From assembly GCA_028101965.1 (NCBI GenBank), contig JAOHMI010000023.1, positions 1 to 34,420 on the forward strand: 34,420 bases of DNA. Reading direction: 5' to 3'. The notes below the pieces were generated by a model, which ran no database searches, was not told the DNA's origin, and saw only the letters and a list, made by a program, of their open reading frames with translations. The translations under genes were made by a program, and so were the position numbers. Shown here piece by piece: positions 16,690 through 28,554 of the stretch (positions within the stretch are counted from its first letter, which is position 1; the number at the start of each line of letters is the position of its first letter). Source of the stretch: Bacteriovoracaceae bacterium. GTDB taxonomy: Bacteria; Bdellovibrionota; Bacteriovoracia; Bacteriovoracales; Bacteriovoracaceae.

Positions 16690-19600
16690 TTACAGAAACT
16701 TAACTCGATTTATTCCCCCATCGGGATATAACTTTAAGGTGATAAATTTGCATTTAAACTCTGAATTTATTTCAAAAAGAGCAAAGTTGCCACGGTAGGG
16801 TTTTACAAATACTTTTTGTAAAAGAGTTTGTTTCTCGCCATCATTGTCCATCGCATTCAAAGAAAGATATAAGGGACTATTATTAATAAAAAACTTGAAA
16901 TCAATCAAAATTTTCTTTATTACCTTCTCTTTTTTTAATCTAATTTTAATCACTTCACAATTATCATTCTTTCTTGAGCGTGCACTTTCTCCGCCATCAA
17001 ACATATCTAAGGGGTCGTAGGGAGATAGAATCGATGAAGCTTGAGAGTAATGTTCATTGCTAACTTTAACCACTTCATATTCTGAATTTTGAAAAGGGAT
17101 TGTGTATCCTTTATTTATTTGTGGAATTTCAGAACATCTAATTGCCTTATTTAAATGCTCTTTAAAAACTTTGGCATCTTTACTTTCCAAAAAACTCTGG
17201 TCGAAGAATTTAATTCTGGTTAAACCACCATCAGGAAATGTTTTTAATTTAAAATGTGTATAATTATCTTTTAATTCCTCTAGCTTAAATAAATGCCAAG
17301 AGTTTCCTTGAAGTATTTTATTGTCTAAAAGTGTTTCATTCAAATTGAAAGTTTCATCTTTTGAGGCAATTAGAGTGATCGACTCCACATGATTACCATC
17401 ATGATATTCAGTTGAAACAAAAACAAATTTAGGCTTTATTGCTTCACAAGAAAAAATTAACTCCTCATACCCACGGACAGAATGCCGAGAAGACTCCCAA
17501 CTATCCATGACTTTTCCTTGATTACCAAAAAGAGTTGGGTCAAAGTCCACTTGGTATGGAGAAAGTAAATTTTCTGCAGGGGCAAACTTTTGGTCAGTTA
17601 CACTAAGAATACTCGGTTTTCTAGTTAAATTGTAATGCTCAAACAAGTCTAAAGAGAAATTTCGTCTGGGATAAGATGCAGCTTTTTCCAATTCAAAAGC
17701 TTTTAAAAATAATTCTTTATATCCCCTATTTACTTTTTCATCTTGAGAAAACTCAGAGTGATTAAAATCGGTATTAAATAAATCTGAATTAATACCAGCT
17801 ATATTATTTGAAACTAAAATTAATTGAATAATTTTAGATATTGCTAAAACAGATTTTTCCTCGCCTGTACTAAAGAGACATAAACCAAAACCTTTATTTA
17901 ATCCCTTAAAACAATAGAGATAAAAGGAACGATATCCATCATTTGCCCCTTGATGAATCATAAAATAATTCTCTGCTCCCTCTATAATAAAAGTTCCAAG
18001 GGCGGCCTTCGCATGCATAAATTCACACGAGCCAAAGTCTTCTCCGTGTAGCATTTGTCTAGCCAATGTATGGCCAATGTTTATTCTAGTATTTTTTAAA
18101 CAATGATCCTGAGAAGAGTTGAAATCTTCGCTTATTCTCTTTAATACTTTAATCACATCTTTGGGATGAGAAGTCATCCCCGCAGCAAAAGAGGGAAAAA
18201 AAAGTTCGCTCTCAAGTGACTTATTTAAATCATTGTGTGGAGTTACTTTTGAATTAAAATTTTTATTTTTTGGGTTGGAAGAGATGGTCTCACAACCTAA
18301 TTTTTGATAGAACTTGTCTATCAATGGAAAAATATTTTGTTCTTTATTGATTAGTCCAATGAGATATTCAAGAAGGATAAACCCTCCTCCAGAATACTGA
18401 AAGCTTTTTCCAGGGTCGCCACATACTTCAATTTGTTTGTAACCAAACTGTTCTGGAGCTAGCAATAGCTCTTCTACCGTGGGAAAATTTTTATCCTCTG
18501 GAATTCCATTTACATAGTGCATATTCATTGCACTATGATTAAGTAAGTGACGAATCTTTAAATCAGATGAAAGATTAGAGATAACAATTTTACTATTATA
18601 TTTAACTAAGATATCTGAAACCGAACTATCAATTGAAACACATTTATCAGCGAAGAAGTTAAGGCAAAAATAAGTTGCCATTGTCTTTGATAAAGATGCC
18701 ATTTGGTAAATATATTTATTATCCTTTAAATCCACTTTACCTTGATAGAAGTTTAAACTATTAATTTCTCCACTCTCTAGACTAAGAGAAAAAGATAAAG
18801 AGTCCACCGAATTTTTCTCAAGAATTTTCTCCACTTGATGAATAAAATCAATATCAGAGTTTTCTCTTACTCTTCTATCGGTAATTGCAAAAAGTTCACT
18901 TTTTGCAGTTAAAAACTCTTCATCTAAGCCTCGTGCCATTCTATTATTTATCAATTCAAGAAGCTCGGGAGAGCTCTTTCCTTTAGCAGAAACTAAAAAT
19001 TTAAAATTAAATTTTTTGAAGTACTCGATTCCTTTTGTAAGTAGTTCAGAAGATATGGTTCCTTCAGGGTCAGACTCTTTAGCAGCGGATTGTTCTGTTT
19101 TGGCCAATTCGTCTAATGTTTCTTTTTTTTGTCCAATATCACCATGAAATGAAGCAGCTGAGTTTAATTGTTTAAGAGAAAAGCCAAGAATCATTTCTCT
19201 TGATGAAACAGAATCATAATAACCTACTGATGAACAGTGCTTTGCAAATTCATGAACACCACACATTTCAAAGTAAAAACTATATTTTTCAAATTTCGTC
19301 TGTAGTTTAAACTTTTCCTTGTCATATTTTTGTATTGCACTCCACGGATCACTGGCTTCTTGAATAAAATCCAAGGTAAAAGGCAGCAAAACCTCCGGTA
19401 AAAACTCAGGTGGCTTGGGATCTAACACTACTTTCATTAATAAGTGGAATGCTACTTTGTACCATTTCGCATTCGAAGCAGTATAATTAACTTGTGTAAT
19501 TTTGCTTTTCGTTTGCAATTTTTTTCGAATAAAATTCATTTCCTGATGGCACAAATGTATAAAAGCTAAAGGATCAAAGCGACAATGGTTAACCTCATGC

Positions 19601-21327
19601 CACAGCTCCCAACGAGAGCGTTCAGCAGTAGCTAAATCATCCATCACCCTAACCGGAGTATTCCCGATTTTAGCAGGAAGCGCCACACAGCCGTTACCAC
19701 ATAGCCAATCAGTTAAGTATTGTAGCGATTGGAAAATATTATATTCGATTTCCGTAGGATCATTATTAGAAATAAAATTTGATTCCTTAATATCTGCAAC
19801 TATAAGAGAACGAGCAAATTTTTTCGAAGTTGGATTTAAACTAGAAACGTCATCATCTTCTAAAAATTCTTTAATTTCCTTGAAGTAACTATTATTTAAA
19901 TAATCTTTAAAAATAATTAATAAAGATTCATTCTTCTTGTTTTTATAGTCTTCAAAAGCGATTGTAAGGGCTTGACCAAGCCTAATAAAGTCAGGGTGGG
20001 CTACCCAAAAACCTTTTAATCCTCTTTTTAACTGAGTTACGACATCCTTAAAGAACCCTAGTAAAGTCAATTGATAAGACTCAGAATTCAAATCATTTGA
20101 AACGGGAAGAATTCCATACATCCCCCCAATGGGGATTCCCCCTCTTTCTCCAACAATATCAGCAACCAATTCATGGCTTGCCTTAATATACTTTATCACT
20201 ATGTTTGGATCTGCTTTAACTGGAATTCGGTAATTTGGATCCTGTTTAAACAATCTCGCCGTTGAAGCTAAAAAATCATGCCACCCTAAGCTCGCTCCTG
20301 CAAAGTTTGGCGATAGAGCATCAATTATTTCATTTAATCGAAAAATAGCTCGAGGATTCTCTAATACGATAAAAAGTTTTATGGTTGATGAGTCAAAACC
20401 AGGATTGATTTTTCTTATCTCTTCGGAAGTAACTCGAATTAATTGTTTTATGTAAGCAGCTTCTTCATCGTTTTCTAATTTTGGAATATAAAATGCTAAT
20501 CTCTCAGGGTGAGCATGATGGTGGAAAAGATGTAGGACAAAATCATATAGATGCAAAGGAACCGCTTCATTCTGTAAAAATAAAAATGTACAAGGTAGAG
20601 CTAACCCAGGAATTCGTTTAATCGGTTGAAGCAATTTATTCTTTTCTAATGAATACGTTTTTTTACCTTGCTGGAAAGAAAGAGTGCCTTCAAAGCAACT
20701 TTTTAAGTTTCTCCCTGCTTCCACTAAATCTTCATGTATGGGAGTTTTTGAATCCTCATCATCTGCTCCCCACTTAGTGGGGAAATCACTTTTTTGAAGC
20801 ACTTCCTCGATAATCTTAGGTTCTTGATCATGCTTACGATGAAATGCATTCATTGCATTGATACACATTTTCTCTTTTCCCGGTGGCCCAAAAAGAGTAA
20901 CGTGATGACCATCTAAAAATTTTGGTAAATGAATTTGTTTAGACTCGGGGTCTGCTTTATAAAAATCTTCCCTAAGAGGTCCAAAGGGAATCCGATCATT
21001 TTCATCTCTAAATCCAATGGCCGTTTTATAATCTTCAGATGTTACCTCTATTTTATTTTCTAAATTATATTTGGACAAGCTAGAACAACGCTGATCAATA
21101 AAATGTCGATCTTTTTCCCGTTGCCAAATTAATCGAGAGTAATCCTTCCTTACTTTTTCCCAAACCTGGGTAATCAGTAAAAGAGCGTCTTCTGTTTCAT
21201 AATCATTGATCGTTCCATGAAAAGCGATATCTGAATTAAGTGATTTGGATGATTTCAAAACTCTTTGCTTAAATTTCAAGTTAAAAAAAGGCTTTTCATG
21301 TAATGAGATTGATTTTATTTTTTGCAT
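16690..21327 (-). CDS. Four-domain purine catabolism fusion: malate synthase-like, OHCU decarboxylase, serine hydrolase, allantoicase
   Basis: No signal peptide, so cytoplasmic; 1545 residues. About 35-605 aligns with malate synthase: FGPP at 146-149, Glu323 in VLEN, metal-ligand Asp351, GGMYGILP, WVAHPDF, and the catalytic base Asp564 in MDDLATAE. The family's PRGWHL arginine is not in register (IPGLAL). About 650-825 is OHCU decarboxylase, which makes S-allantoin: His728 in FHGDIGQKK, Glu745 in TEQSA. About 835-1175 is a beta-lactamase/esterase-type hydrolase: SLSK (Ser878, Lys881), Tyr978 in YSGGGF, HQGANDGYR at 1125. About 1235-1545 is allantoicase, with both repeats: MDSWESSR and FPDGGLTRIKFF, then FDGGESARSR and YPDGGINRVKF. 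It follows the HIU hydrolase gene by 18 bases. The ATG has only a weak GGAT site. Confidence 0.93.
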   Translation of the reverse strand: MQKIKSISLHEKPFFNLKFKQRVLKSSKSLNSDIAFHGTINDYETEDALLLITQVWEKVRKDYSRLIWQREKDRHFIDQRCSSLSKYNLENKIEVTSEDYKTAIGFRDENDRIPFGPLREDFYKADPESKQIHLPKFLDGHHVTLFGPPGKEKMCINAMNAFHRKHDQEPKIIEEVLQKSDFPTKWGADDEDSKTPIHEDLVEAGRNLKSCFEGTLSFQQGKKTYSLEKNKLLQPIKRIPGLALPCTFLFLQNEAVPLHLYDFVLHLFHHHAHPERLAFYIPKLENDEEAAYIKQLIRVTSEEIRKINPGFDSSTIKLFIVLENPRAIFRLNEIIDALSPNFAGASLGWHDFLASTARLFKQDPNYRIPVKADPNIVIKYIKASHELVADIVGERGGIPIGGMYGILPVSNDLNSESYQLTLLGFFKDVVTQLKRGLKGFWVAHPDFIRLGQALTIAFEDYKNKKNESLLIIFKDYLNNSYFKEIKEFLEDDDVSSLNPTSKKFARSLIVADIKESNFISNNDPTEIEYNIFQSLQYLTDWLCGNGCVALPAKIGNTPVRVMDDLATAERSRWELWHEVNHCRFDPLAFIHLCHQEMNFIRKKLQTKSKITQVNYTASNAKWYKVAFHLLMKVVLDPKPPEFLPEVLLPFTLDFIQEASDPWSAIQKYDKEKFKLQTKFEKYSFYFEMCGVHEFAKHCSSVGYYDSVSSREMILGFSLKQLNSAASFHGDIGQKKETLDELAKTEQSAAKESDPEGTISSELLTKGIEYFKKFNFKFLVSAKGKSSPELLELINNRMARGLDEEFLTAKSELFAITDRRVRENSDIDFIHQVEKILEKNSVDSLSFSLSLESGEINSLNFYQGKVDLKDNKYIYQMASLSKTMATYFCLNFFADKCVSIDSSVSDILVKYNSKIVISNLSSDLKIRHLLNHSAMNMHYVNGIPEDKNFPTVEELLLAPEQFGYKQIEVCGDPGKSFQYSGGGFILLEYLIGLINKEQNIFPLIDKFYQKLGCETISSNPKNKNFNSKVTPHNDLNKSLESELFFPSFAAGMTSHPKDVIKVLKRISEDFNSSQDHCLKNTRINIGHTLARQMLHGEDFGSCEFMHAKAALGTFIIEGAENYFMIHQGANDGYRSFYLYCFKGLNKGFGLCLFSTGEEKSVLAISKIIQLILVSNNIAGINSDLFNTDFNHSEFSQDEKVNRGYKELFLKAFELEKAASYPRRNFSLDLFEHYNLTRKPSILSVTDQKFAPAENLLSPYQVDFDPTLFGNQGKVMDSWESSRHSVRGYEELIFSCEAIKPKFVFVSTEYHDGNHVESITLIASKDETFNLNETLLDNKILQGNSWHLFKLEELKDNYTHFKLKTFPDGGLTRIKFFDQSFLESKDAKVFKEHLNKAIRCSEIPQINKGYTIPFQNSEYEVVKVSNEHYSQASSILSPYDPLDMFDGGESARSRKNDNCEVIKIRLKKEKVIKKILIDFKFFINNSPLYLSLNAMDNDGEKQTLLQKVFVKPYRGNFALFEINSEFKCKFITLKLYPDGGINRVKFL

Positions 21328-21345: not shown

Positions 21346-21669
21346 TTAACTACCTCTATAAGTTGAGTAGCCATATGGATTAAGAAGGATAGGCACATGA
21401 TATTTACGAGATGTATCTTGAATATTAAAAGTAATTTGAACATTCTCGAAGAAATGAGAAGTATTTATTTTTGAAAAGTATTCCTCAACTTTAAAATGCA
21501 ATTGATAAACGCCTTCCTCAAAAGGACAGTCAAAAGCTATTCTCCCATCATTATTAGTGGACGATTCACTTATGGTTTTCCAAGATTCACCAATTTTTAC
21601 TTTTAAATCGACAGGAACTCCGTCTGCGGGACTTCCTAAGGTGGTGTCAAGTATATGAGTCGAGATCAT
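21346..21669 (-). CDS. uraH: 5-hydroxyisourate hydrolase (transthyretin-related)
   Basis: The 107-residue protein is standard length for HIU hydrolase, which opens 5-hydroxyisourate to OHCU in urate breakdown. The catalytic residues are present: His5 in STHILDT, Arg43 in DGRIAF, His91 in RKYHVPILL, and the terminal tetrapeptide YRGS (104-107) that separates this enzyme from transthyretin. AAAGGAA lies about seven bases before the ATG. The upstream puuD-like stop is only three bases away, and the fusion gene starts 18 bases downstream, so the three form one operon catalysing successive steps. The name uraH (also pucM or hiuH) is used by homology. Confidence 0.97.
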   Translation of the reverse strand: MISTHILDTTLGSPADGVPVDLKVKIGESWKTISESSTNNDGRIAFDCPFEEGVYQLHFKVEEYFSKINTSHFFENVQITFNIQDTSRKYHVPILLNPYGYSTYRGS

Positions 21670-21672
21670 AAT

Positions 21673-23322
21673 CTATTCCTTTGTAAAAACAATATTTAAA
21701 TTTGGGCTACTCTCACTATTCTTTATTTCTATCGTTTCGGTCTTCTCACCAAGTTTTTCATGCCAAAAAATTATTTGGTATTTCCCTGGAATTAAGTTTT
21801 CAAGAGAGAATTCTCCCTTTGAATTTGTAACTGAATAATATGAATGATCAAATATTGCTATGTAAGCACCCATCCAAGGATGAAGTGAACATTTAGTAGA
21901 CAATGTTATTTCCGGATTATTAAAAGAGACACTCTTTCTTTGATTTTTTCCAGGCATATTTAAATTAAAATTCTTATTTATGTTACTCACTGACTTTACG
22001 TTATGAAAAATATTATCGCTATTCAAAAAGGTAACTTTTTGACCAACTCGAACGGCACTTACTCGAGGATGATACAAACAGCCCTTTTGATCTATGAAAT
22101 GCTCTGAGAAATCCTTGTCCTTACTTTCTTCAAAAAAGGATAAATCCGTACCAGAAACTTCTTTAATATAGACGAGAACATTCTCTATCTTCCCATTTTT
22201 AATCAAATACTGATTATTAAACTTTCCCGGATTACCTGAAGTATCACATCCCTTCGGAAGTTTGAGTTCTTCATTCTCAGGAACTTTACCTGAAAAAGAA
22301 ACAGTGCCAGACAATGCTAAATCAAACTTTTGAGAAACAACTGTCGATAATTTTTTATTATTAGTTTCATGATTATGCACAGTTCGCTTTACATTGGAGG
22401 AAACCGCTTTCTCTATCGGCTGATCTTTTGAATATTGAATCGCATAAATGAGAGTAGTTAGCCCTATAAATAATGCAAATTTAGATCGCCCAGGGTTATT
22501 AATTCTTTTCACAAAGTATTCTCTGATCCCAGCTCCTGAAATGCACAATATTAACAAAATAATCCAGTTATACTCATGTCCATAAGTAGAAGGAAAATGA
22601 TTACTTAACATTATTAGAATGACTGGTAAGGTGAAATAAGTATTGTGGGTTGAACGGTTCTTGGCATTTACAGCCCAAGACTCATCCACTGTTTTATTCT
22701 TTTTTGCGGCCTCCACCATTTTAAACTGCCGGGGAATAATTCGCATGAATACATTTGCGGTCATCCAAGTTCCTAGCATCCCCCCAATATGAATATAAGC
22801 GGCTCTTCCACTAAAAGTATGGCAGAGAAGATAAGTCATCCCCACTAGCCAAACAATGGTTAGAAAATGTCCGATAAGTGGTGATGCGAGTATTGTCTTT
22901 CTCTCCCACACATAATCATAAAAAAACCATGAACCAAAAATAGAAAATAATCCAAGACAAATTGCCTCAAAATTTTGAATGGATGAAACTCCGGAATCAA
23001 GTAGGAACATGCCACCAGTAAAATAAAAGATTAGACTAAGAAGTAAGAAACCACTCATCCAAGTCCAATAGGCCTCCCATTTAAACCAGTGTAGAGATTT
23101 TGGTACTTCAACAGAACCCATTTTTAATTTTTTGACATGATAGAACCCACCACCGTGAACCATCCAAACTTCGCCAAAAGAGTTTGGATTTTGATCATCA
23201 TCGGTCTTTTTAAATGTGCGATCAAGCCACATGAAAAAGATAGATGTCCCAATCCAAGTTACTGCCGTTGTAATATGCAGCCACCGAACTATTAATAATA
23301 GCCAATCGTAATAAAAATCCAT
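21673..23322 (-). CDS. puuD: Membrane urate oxidase (PuuD-type) fused to a C-terminal cupredoxin
   Basis: From the ATG at 23322, preceded by AGGAC, the protein has 549 residues; an in-frame ATG at 23361 has no better site and adds 13 unlikely residues. Residues 1-310 match the PuuD membrane domain: RWLHITTAVTWIG, GEVWMVHGGGFYH at 50-62, LHWFKWEAYWTW at 77-88 and about eight membrane segments. PuuD oxidises urate to 5-hydroxyisourate, and known members end in a cytochrome c domain. Here no CxxCH heme motif is seen. Residues 332-549 instead form a plastocyanin-like domain with a type 1 copper set: His440 in IFHNV, Cys478, His481 and Met484 in CSLHPWM, followed by a carboxypeptidase-regulatory-like strand region (GEFSLENLIPGKY). 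It is the first gene of the urate operon. Confidence 0.92.
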   Translation of the reverse strand: MDFYYDWLLLIVRWLHITTAVTWIGTSIFFMWLDRTFKKTDDDQNPNSFGEVWMVHGGGFYHVKKLKMGSVEVPKSLHWFKWEAYWTWMSGFLLLSLIFYFTGGMFLLDSGVSSIQNFEAICLGLFSIFGSWFFYDYVWERKTILASPLIGHFLTIVWLVGMTYLLCHTFSGRAAYIHIGGMLGTWMTANVFMRIIPRQFKMVEAAKKNKTVDESWAVNAKNRSTHNTYFTLPVILIMLSNHFPSTYGHEYNWIILLILCISGAGIREYFVKRINNPGRSKFALFIGLTTLIYAIQYSKDQPIEKAVSSNVKRTVHNHETNNKKLSTVVSQKFDLALSGTVSFSGKVPENEELKLPKGCDTSGNPGKFNNQYLIKNGKIENVLVYIKEVSGTDLSFFEESKDKDFSEHFIDQKGCLYHPRVSAVRVGQKVTFLNSDNIFHNVKSVSNINKNFNLNMPGKNQRKSVSFNNPEITLSTKCSLHPWMGAYIAIFDHSYYSVTNSKGEFSLENLIPGKYQIIFWHEKLGEKTETIEIKNSESSPNLNIVFTKE

Positions 23323-23387
23323 AGTCCTGCTTAACACAATAGATGTTATTCTGCCTAGCATCTTCTAATATTTTCAATATGATATAT

Positions 23388-26364: not shown

Positions 26365-28554
26365 TTAAACAGTTAAGTTTCCACCTCTTCGAGGTCTACT
26401 TGGACGACTCGGTCTTGAAGGCCGACTTGGTCTCGATGGACGAGAAGGTCTTGTGCTTGGTCGACTAGGACGAGATGGTCTTGTGCTTGGTCGACTAGGA
26501 CGAGATGGTCTTGAAGGAGTTGTACTCGGTCGTGACGGTCTCGAAGGTCTTGTACTTGGCCGACTTGGACGAGATGGTCTTGAAGGAGTGGTACTCGGTC
26601 GTGACGGTCTCGATGGTGTCGTACTTGGCCGACTTGGACGAGATGGTCTTGAAGGAGTTGTACTCGGACGACTTGGTCTCGAAGGAGTCGTACTTGGTCG
26701 ACTTGGCCTATTAGGTCTCGTTGTCGGACGGTTTGGCCTAGTAGGTGTTGTCGGTCTACTTGGACGGTTAGGTCTTGTTGTTGGACGATTTGGCCTTGTA
26801 GGTGTTGTCGGTCTATTCGGACGATTCGGTCTTGTGGTTGGACGGTTTGGCCGAGTAGGTGTTGTCGGTCTATTAGGACGGTTAGGTCTTGTTGTTGGCC
26901 GATTTGGTCTATTAGGACGAGTTGGTCCTGTCGTCGGTCGGTTTGGCCGATTCGGACGATTCGGTCTTGTAGTAGGTCTGTTAGGACGGTTTGGTCTTGT
27001 GGTTGGCCTTGTTCTAGGAGGCATCGTTCGTGGTGGACGGTTTGGTCTATTTGGTCTACGAACAACCACTCTTCGGCGATTTGGATTGTGCCGAACTCTT
27101 CTAACAACTACAGGACGTCGATGAGGACGAACTCTACGATGAGGTCTCATTACTCTTCGGCCTCGAGGAATTCTTACTCCGACACAGTGTCCATAGTATC
27201 CTGACCACCGGTAGCCTCCACGACAACTAGCTCCAACATATATTCTTCTTCTTAGACAATTTGATCTACCATAATCCCAATAGTTTCCAGCATGACATCG
27301 TCGATAAGATCTTCTTGGGCGACAGTTCCAAACATGGGGATCCCAGTAGTTGCCGGTAACGCAAATTCTTCGATGAGGAAGACACCTTCTCGATCCATAG
27401 GACCAGTAATTTCCATATCGACAATAATTATAGTTTGGACGACATCTTCCAGCGTAAGCATCATAGTACTCACCTACTGAACATCTTCTGTATCCAACAT
27501 AGACACATTCTTTATATGTCCAAGAATATTTATAACCAATATTACAAGTATAAGGTAATCTCACACAACGATTATAATAGCTCGACCATCTGTAATTATA
27601 CGGACAATAGTTATAACTTCGACGAACACATTGATTTAAAAAATGATCATAATAGTATCCAGCACCACAATTTCCATTATTAACTTCTGGATATTTGTAA
27701 CATGAATTACTTTCTTCATCGTAATACTCACCAATTTCACAACGCTCTCCAGCTGCTTGAACACAATGACCTAAAGTATCGTCATAGTAGTAACCAGGTG
27801 CACATTGATAACCAATGTCTTTATTTTCTTGAACATCAAATTGAAACTGTTTGTATACAGTGACTTCTTCACGGGTTGAGATATTCATGGCCGTTAATGA
27901 AGCAGTGAATTCATAAACACCTTCAACTGAAGTTACACCCTGAATAAGCATTGCTTTTTGAGCATTTGTTAAATCAACTCCTTCAGGCATATTTCCAACT
28001 TCAAACTGAATAGTTCCAGCATTAAATGAAGGCTCGTCTGCTTGAGAAATCTTTAAATTGATCTGCTCATTTTTTGTTTGTTTAGTTAAATACTTGTCTT
28101 CAACAAACTTGGGATGGATAAAACCTTCAATGGACTCAGAGACCAGGCACATTCTCTCCACAATATTTTTCTTTCCTTCAGCATCTTTAATGTCTAAAGA
28201 AATTTGAAAACAATACTCTCCTAAGAAAGCTGGAGTTCCCGCAACAATAAAATTACTATTGTTGACTTGATACAGATTCATTCCAAACGGAAAAGAATCA
28301 TCTGCAAATTTGACTTCAACTGGAAAGTTGTCATCATTTCCAAAAATCTTTACTTCTACTTCAGAGTACTGACCATAGTTTACAACTAGGTCTTCTTCCT
28401 CGTAGGTAAGAAAAATGTTTTGAAAGTCTTCACCGAGCTCTCTCTCTTGCGAGTAGGCTGGCATTAACTGAGATAAAAGCATAAAGCTTAAAAGCATTAA
28501 TAGAAGATTCCGGAACGAGATCACACTCGTCCGCCTCCAAATACCCTCTTTCAT
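26365..28554 (-). CDS. Secreted modular protein: Ig-like region, ten C-x12-C repeats, Arg/Pro-rich tail
   Basis: This 729-residue exported protein has a long signal segment (15-36, cleavage near AYSQ). Residues 40-245 look like two putative-Ig (He_PIG-like) beta domains (FGMNLYQVNN, GTPAFLGEYCF, MPEGVDLTNAQ). Residues 251-457 contain ten cysteine pairs, each exactly C-x12-C, with G-x-Y-Y/W after the first Cys in most. Residues 462-500 are Arg/His/Val-rich, and 500-722 are runs of RPN, RPT and then RPS triplets, ending RPRRGGNLTV. AGGGGGAG lies just before the ATG, nearly the same leader as the metzincin lipoprotein gene. I do not recognise the family. A cell-surface or matrix protein is a reasonable guess, as the tail would bind acidic polymers. 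Confidence 0.88.
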   Translation of the reverse strand: MKEGIWRRTSVISFRNLLLMLLSFMLLSQLMPAYSQERELGEDFQNIFLTYEEEDLVVNYGQYSEVEVKIFGNDDNFPVEVKFADDSFPFGMNLYQVNNSNFIVAGTPAFLGEYCFQISLDIKDAEGKKNIVERMCLVSESIEGFIHPKFVEDKYLTKQTKNEQINLKISQADEPSFNAGTIQFEVGNMPEGVDLTNAQKAMLIQGVTSVEGVYEFTASLTAMNISTREEVTVYKQFQFDVQENKDIGYQCAPGYYYDDTLGHCVQAAGERCEIGEYYDEESNSCYKYPEVNNGNCGAGYYYDHFLNQCVRRSYNYCPYNYRWSSYYNRCVRLPYTCNIGYKYSWTYKECVYVGYRRCSVGEYYDAYAGRCRPNYNYCRYGNYWSYGSRRCLPHRRICVTGNYWDPHVWNCRPRRSYRRCHAGNYWDYGRSNCLRRRIYVGASCRGGYRWSGYYGHCVGVRIPRGRRVMRPHRRVRPHRRPVVVRRVRHNPNRRRVVVRRPNRPNRPPRTMPPRTRPTTRPNRPNRPTTRPNRPNRPNRPTTGPTRPNRPNRPTTRPNRPNRPTTPTRPNRPTTRPNRPNRPTTPTRPNRPTTRPNRPSRPTTPTRPNRPTTRPNRPSRPSTTPSRPSRPSTTPSRPSRPSRPSTTPSRPSRPSTTPSRPSRPSRPSTRPSRPSRPSTTPSRPSRPSRPSTRPSRPSRPSTRPSRPSRPSRPSRPSRPSRPRRGGNLTV
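26391..27057 (-). repeat. Degenerate tandem repeats encoding an Arg/Pro/Ser/Thr/Asn tail
   Basis: About 670 bases built of short units that on the minus strand encode RPNRPTT- and then RPSRPSTT-type peptides. The N-based units dominate near residue 500 and the S-based units towards the C terminus, suggesting growth from two ancestral units. The repeats also keep shadow frames open on both strands. Confidence 0.93.

Follow-up and report, generated by a model that had tools for sequence, protein, structure and literature searches.

Urate breakdown passes from OHCU to allantoin, allantoate, ureidoglycolate and then glyoxylate (PMC3646786). Two-enzyme fusions have been described, namely an allantoicase-ureidoglycolate hydrolase in C. 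neoformans and an OHCU decarboxylase-HIUase in plants (PMC3646786). For yeast, the same source cites DAL7, a malate synthase known as an accessory of allantoin breakdown which disposes of glyoxylate (PMC3646786). The urate oxidase PuuD is described in PMC4562309. Also, the NCBIfam model PRK13797 (NF010371, "allantoicase", 521 positions) appears to unite allantoicase with OHCU decarboxylase in a bacterial protein.

The DNA analyzed here, called the window, is the whole stretch of 34,420 nucleotides of contig JAOHMI010000023.1 (assembly GCA_028101965.1) from a Bacteriovoracaceae bacterium; the source genome is 67% complete and related to Bacteriovorax. It holds a gene whose product contains, from the N- to the C-terminus, a malate synthase-like domain, an OHCU decarboxylase domain, a beta-lactamase-fold serine hydrolase and a two-repeat allantoicase. 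We propose that this chain is a scaffold uniting four enzymes of the lower half of urate breakdown, with the serine hydrolase as the allantoinase, and we give this reading a probability of about 0.73. We infer the activities of the domains from the families to which they belong and from their conserved residues. The features are the following, in window positions:

16690-21327, minus strand: four-domain fusion gene, 1,545 aa, a single uninterrupted frame from the ATG at 21327 to the stop codon at 16690-16692.
20773-21327, minus strand: N-terminal region, aa 1-185, shared with unfused malate synthase-like proteins of genus g9.
19348-20772, minus strand: malate synthase-like part, aa 186-660, made up of the TIM barrel and the C-terminal domain (Pfam, PDB 3cuz profile, invariant residues).
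18850-19347, minus strand: OHCU decarboxylase domain, aa 661-826, with H728 and E745 conserved (Pfam, PDB profiles, fold match).
17623-18849, minus strand: beta-lactamase-fold serine hydrolase, aa 827-1235, proposed allantoinase (profiles, fold, exclusion with AllB).
18694-18696, minus strand: predicted nucleophile Ser878 of the S-x-x-K motif (SLSK), invariant in the copies holding the region.
18685-18687, minus strand: Lys881 of S-x-x-K, invariant in the copies holding the region.
18394-18396, minus strand: Tyr978 of the Y-S-G motif, replaced by Phe in the unfused proteins of g9 (alignment).
17953-17955, minus strand: His1125 of the H-Q-G-A-N-D-G motif, where the g9 proteins have HHA (alignment).
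16693-17622, minus strand: allantoicase, two repeats, aa 1236-1545 (Pfam, PDB profiles, stand-alone allantoicases).
21346-21669, minus strand: HIUase (5-hydroxyisourate hydrolase, transthyretin family) ending in YRGS, the next gene upstream of the fusion (Pfam, 121 bits).
21673-23361, minus strand: membrane urate oxidase of the PuuD type with a cupredoxin-like C-terminus; this gene heads the presumed operon (Urate_ox_N, 337 bits).

The preliminary description of this DNA had reported the four domains, in this order, in one frame, and had read them as a set for urate breakdown and glyoxylate use. The first point was borne out by the 1,545-codon open reading frame and by Pfam matches along the protein, and the second was right as well. 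Its statement that it knew of no described protein with this domain order also held, as our literature searches of open-licence papers returned no such four-domain protein, nor any beta-lactamase-fold allantoinase. Its interpretation was less complete: the serine hydrolase was given no role, and the allantoinase gap discussed below was overlooked. The N-terminal region has no Pfam match of its own.

A phylum-wide search found the fusion in 68 of 369 genomes of Bdellovibrionota, a count that takes in whole fusions and copies cut by contig ends, and these genomes fall in seven families. Other genomes yielded over 30 full-length homologues at about 40-45% identity; 31 distinct full-length sequences measure 1,512-1,590 aa and share 40-95% mutual identity, and one copy lies in an independently titled Bacteriovorax MAG (L003). 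The many independent homologues, including this last copy, rule out an assembly artefact, which the preliminary description had named as a possible source of the frame. Across 58 aligned sequences, some of them partial, R238, E323, D351, D564, H728, E745, S878 and K881 are invariant wherever present, whereas variation at Y978 and at the final residue of H1125-x-G is confined to the three unfused proteins of genus g9. The mapping of these residues was read off alignments to solved structures, and we take the catalytic role of residues at these places in malate synthase, OHCU decarboxylase and class C beta-lactamases to be established family knowledge. As to spread beyond the phylum, a scan of genome contigs returned two Bacteriovoracaceae loci only, with single-sequence patterns which distant fusions could escape. 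No plasmid record covered 80% of the query, and the search of viral contigs was negative.

A few copies depart from the common form. The G326 copy (L122) is shorter, with 1,405 aa and no match around aa 609-675, the G317 copy (L126) has one internal stop codon, and the frame of the G063 copy (L091) is split inside the OHCU domain. That split, together with the separate gene for the malate synthase-like part in g9, could be taken to mean that the polypeptide is cleaved post-translationally into separate ordinary enzymes and has no scaffold role. We regard this as very improbable, since the fused frame is maintained in seven families and the rare split frames are perhaps due to frameshifts in sequencing.

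Three of the domains matched their Pfam families above the gathering scores. The malate synthase-like domain was recognized by MS_TIM-barrel (PF01274; 74.2 bits at aa 239-455, gathering score 26.4) and MS_C (PF20659; 32.4 bits at aa 526-642, gathering score 23.1), and by the profile of E. coli malate synthase A (PDB 3cuz, E 3.7e-38), with whose catalytic and metal-binding residues R238, E323, D351 and D564 align. The OHCU domain matched OHCU_decarbox (PF09349; 48.9 bits at aa 710-820, gathering score 24) and the PDB profiles 5uou/3o7h (E about 5e-20), and H728 and E745 were aligned with the His and Glu of OHCU decarboxylase structures. Its AlphaFold model (pLDDT 91.3) found 3o7h (E 1.7e-7), zebrafish 2o70 (TM 0.74) and also 2q37 in Foldseek. 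The allantoicase domain matched PF03561 with 125.5 bits in two stretches from aa 1240, and PDB allantoicases 1o59/1sg3 with E about 3e-22; its GKxMDxWExxR and PDGG motifs are conserved, and the alignment shows residues common to stand-alone allantoicases. All three fall below NCBI equivalog cut-offs, with 122.4 bits against 594.5 for malate synthase A (TIGR01344), 46.2 against 139.4 for UraD_2 (TIGR03180) and 128.1 against 277.9 for allantoicase (TIGR02961). As these scores lie far below the cut-offs, the domains are divergent members of their families, the first not being classed as malate synthase A, and an altered specificity is possible.

The fourth domain was less readily recognized. Of the profile checks proposed in the preliminary description, only that with Beta-lactamase (PF00144) fell short in the window protein (22.3 bits at aa 873-1062, cut-off 27), whereas homologues of the same architecture are clearly over the cut-off (88.0 bits in L030, 64.3 in L091). 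The proposed structure prediction gave confident models for this domain (pLDDT 89.9) and for the OHCU domain, matching class C beta-lactamases and OHCU decarboxylases, respectively. In Foldseek, the serine hydrolase model had the class C beta-lactamase fold, with best PDB matches at E about 1e-14, and the S-x-x-K, Tyr and H-x-G motifs are present within this fold. A phmmer search with the serine-hydrolase stretch alone returned weak matches only (DD-peptidases and chance antibody chains), and the question was settled by profile search.

The fusion has enzymes on both sides of the conversion of allantoin to allantoate, yet no known allantoinase. Among the 96 genomes bearing allantoicase, 68 have the fusion, 26 have AllB, one has PuuE and one (G147) has a serine hydrolase-allantoicase protein, so that none is left over. 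Orthologues of AllB reach E 1e-73 or lower and 44% identity or more to the queries, clearly apart from paralogues at E 5e-52 and weaker. These orthologues occur in 26 genomes, all allantoicase-bearing, and in 0 of the 68 with the four-domain fusion; the single genome with PuuE is likewise fusion-free and allantoicase-bearing. Genera g152 (G330 and G331) and g163 (G345 and G344) each contain one genome with the fusion and one with AllB. The p-value for the exclusion of fusion and AllB is 1.8e-21, which overstates independence as the pattern is partly inherited. A hidden AllB or PuuE in the fusion genomes was searched for and not found, paralogues being classed by tree and NCBIfam. The amidohydrolase paralogues examined there were dihydroorotase-like, or dihydropyrimidinase in G023 and G034; none exceeded an allantoinase cut-off, and one paralogue in G066 was below every cut-off. 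With no known allantoinase in the fusion genomes and with AllB and the fusion excluding each other, the missing step is best assigned, as a candidate, to the serine hydrolase. It is most likely a metal-independent allantoinase working through an acyl-enzyme.

Genus g9 (G008, G146, G147; L087, L088, L031, L033) differs in that the parts are not all fused. The malate synthase-like gene is separate in G008 and G146 and 52% identical to the fusion domain, there is a serine hydrolase-allantoicase gene, and G008 has an AllB-OHCU decarboxylase fusion (L033). Beside the serine hydrolase-allantoicase gene, L031 and L087 carry a class V aminotransferase and a half-length allantoicase. In the g9 serine hydrolases, Tyr978 is replaced by Phe and HQG by HHA, the truncated G008 copy showing only HHA. 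Both G008 and G146 still have AllB. Against the proposed role, G147 carries the Phe variant while no AllB was found in its genome, which is 68% complete. The g9 pattern, drawn from three related genomes, is suggestive and fits a loss of allantoinase activity where AllB is present.

These data also bear on another reading, in which the fusion is real and its serine hydrolase acts on another ureide, an ester or a peptide, allantoin being opened by a hidden enzyme such as a dihydroorotase-like amidohydrolase. Beta-lactamase-fold hydrolases are indeed catalytically diverse; the domain of the fusion, however, is placed between the two steps that it would join. Every fusion genome searched retains at least one amidohydrolase, mostly dihydroorotase-like, but the same families are present in AllB genomes, and fusion genomes usually have just one, which is needed for pyrimidine synthesis. 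No further gene is conserved in the fusion operon. Genus g9 does have AllB alongside a serine hydrolase-allantoicase protein, but there the Tyr is lost, and elsewhere the domain is missing where AllB is present. We consider this reading quite unlikely.

In the pathway that we propose, with the serine hydrolase as allantoinase, PuuD and HIUase would produce OHCU, which the OHCU decarboxylase domain would convert to (S)-allantoin. The serine-hydrolase domain would then open the hydantoin ring via a Ser878 acyl-enzyme to give allantoate, replacing the unrelated AllB or PuuE, with Lys881 and Tyr978 as a putative acid-base pair of the kind found in class C beta-lactamases and DD-peptidases. The opening of cyclic amides via an acyl-serine is known chemistry of the beta-lactamase fold. 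The allantoicase domain would split allantoate into urea and ureidoglycolate, the latter would yield a second urea and glyoxylate, spontaneously or by some further enzyme, and the malate synthase domain would form malate from glyoxylate and acetyl-CoA. A single chain would at least hold the enzymes at a constant ratio and clear toxic glyoxylate close to where it arises; that intermediates are truly channelled is speculation.

The preliminary description had the steps from OHCU to malate on one scaffold; in this chain no enzyme is assigned to the conversion of ureidoglycolate to glyoxylate. The ureidoglycolate lyase family PF04115 was absent from 37 of the 38 genomes tested, with or without the fusion. 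Its one occurrence is in G147, adjoining the serine hydrolase-allantoicase gene. Since AllB genomes and fusion genomes lack PF04115 alike, nothing ties the serine hydrolase to that step. The serine hydrolase was also considered as a lyase substitute and not favoured, an acyl-serine enzyme being poorly suited to this chemistry.

With no ureidoglycolate lyase found, the malate synthase-like domain could have diverged into a Claisen-type enzyme that takes another acceptor or serves another role, such as using ureidoglycolate directly, so that its product would not be malate from free glyoxylate. The distance from the malate synthase A cut-off would agree with this, as would a second malate synthase-like gene in several fusion genomes, the window's own included. 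We nevertheless hold it to be unlikely, as the catalytic Arg, Glu and Asp and the base Asp are invariant and the yeast DAL7, cited in PMC3646786, is a precedent for a malate synthase in allantoin catabolism.

Fusion loci whose flank is long enough preserve the order PuuD-HIUase-fusion, and the other neighbours differ. The C-terminus of the window's urate oxidase matches an amicyanin model with 27 bits and contains a C-x-x-H-P-W-M motif and no CxxCH, whereas PuuD carries a cytochrome c at the place of this cupredoxin-like region. These sequence features suggest that copper replaces haem as the electron acceptor of the window enzyme. A cupredoxin-like end was seen in most of the related loci read, and CxxCH in G030 and G146. 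Fusion-free relatives have separate genes for AllB, allantoicase, OHCU decarboxylase, HIUase and DUF6986, and a urate oxidase gene is often close by. DUF6986 (PF22484; L034:11071-12477 and orthologues) closes many AllB-type urate operons; it was detected in 11 of the 44 genomes tested, all 11 without the fusion, and is absent from the tested fusion genomes. It may correspond to the malate synthase domain as the protein that handles glyoxylate or ureidoglycolate; a literature search on DUF6986 found nothing. Elsewhere in the window, a 729-residue protein (26365-28554, minus strand) has no match in Pfam or NCBIfam.

Bdellovibrionota are known for predators, which are exposed to much prey nucleic acid. 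The fusion offers a ready system for asking whether OHCU, ureidoglycolate and glyoxylate, which are unstable or toxic, are passed on within a chain. Also, the allantoinase prediction names a catalytic serine and explains why the fusion genomes are without every known allantoinase. If true, it would add a beta-lactamase-fold enzyme to purine catabolism and set right how this step is annotated in dozens of bacteria of the phylum.

Compared with known enzymes, the first domain shares with E. coli malate synthase A (3cuz) the TIM barrel, the metal-binding Glu/Asp and the catalytic Asp, and differs from bacterial malate synthase genes in being about 27% identical, fused, and provided with its own N-terminal region. 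It resembles the yeast DAL7 in that glyoxylate from allantoin would be disposed of by a malate synthase. The serine hydrolase has the fold and the S-x-x-K/Tyr/H-x-G motifs of class C beta-lactamases, DD-peptidases and D-amino-acid amidase (PDB 2drw), but it is 12-17% identical to these, has Y-S-G instead of Y-x-N, stands in a fusion and has another predicted substrate. AllB (TIGR03178, amidohydrolase superfamily) and PuuE (TIGR03212) catalyze the reaction proposed for it, allantoin to allantoate; their folds are unrelated to its class C beta-lactamase fold, it has no homology to either, and both are absent from all fusion genomes. It is likely that the serine hydrolase represents a further non-homologous class of allantoinase, metal-independent and working through an acyl-serine, within a four-enzyme OHCU-to-malate scaffold that replaces the separate-gene pathway in much of the phylum. 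The C. neoformans and plant fusions likewise unite consecutive enzymes of urate breakdown in one polypeptide, with allantoicase or OHCU decarboxylase as a partner, but they comprise two enzyme kinds, are eukaryotic and lack malate synthase and serine hydrolase. PRK13797, which matches the fusion with 80.6 bits (cut-off 814), has its OHCU part C-terminal, at profile positions 440-515, whereas this part precedes the allantoicase in the fusion, and it is also without malate synthase or serine hydrolase. Next to the known two-enzyme fusions, the four-domain OHCU-to-malate chain is probably new, as is, probably, the enzyme class inside it.
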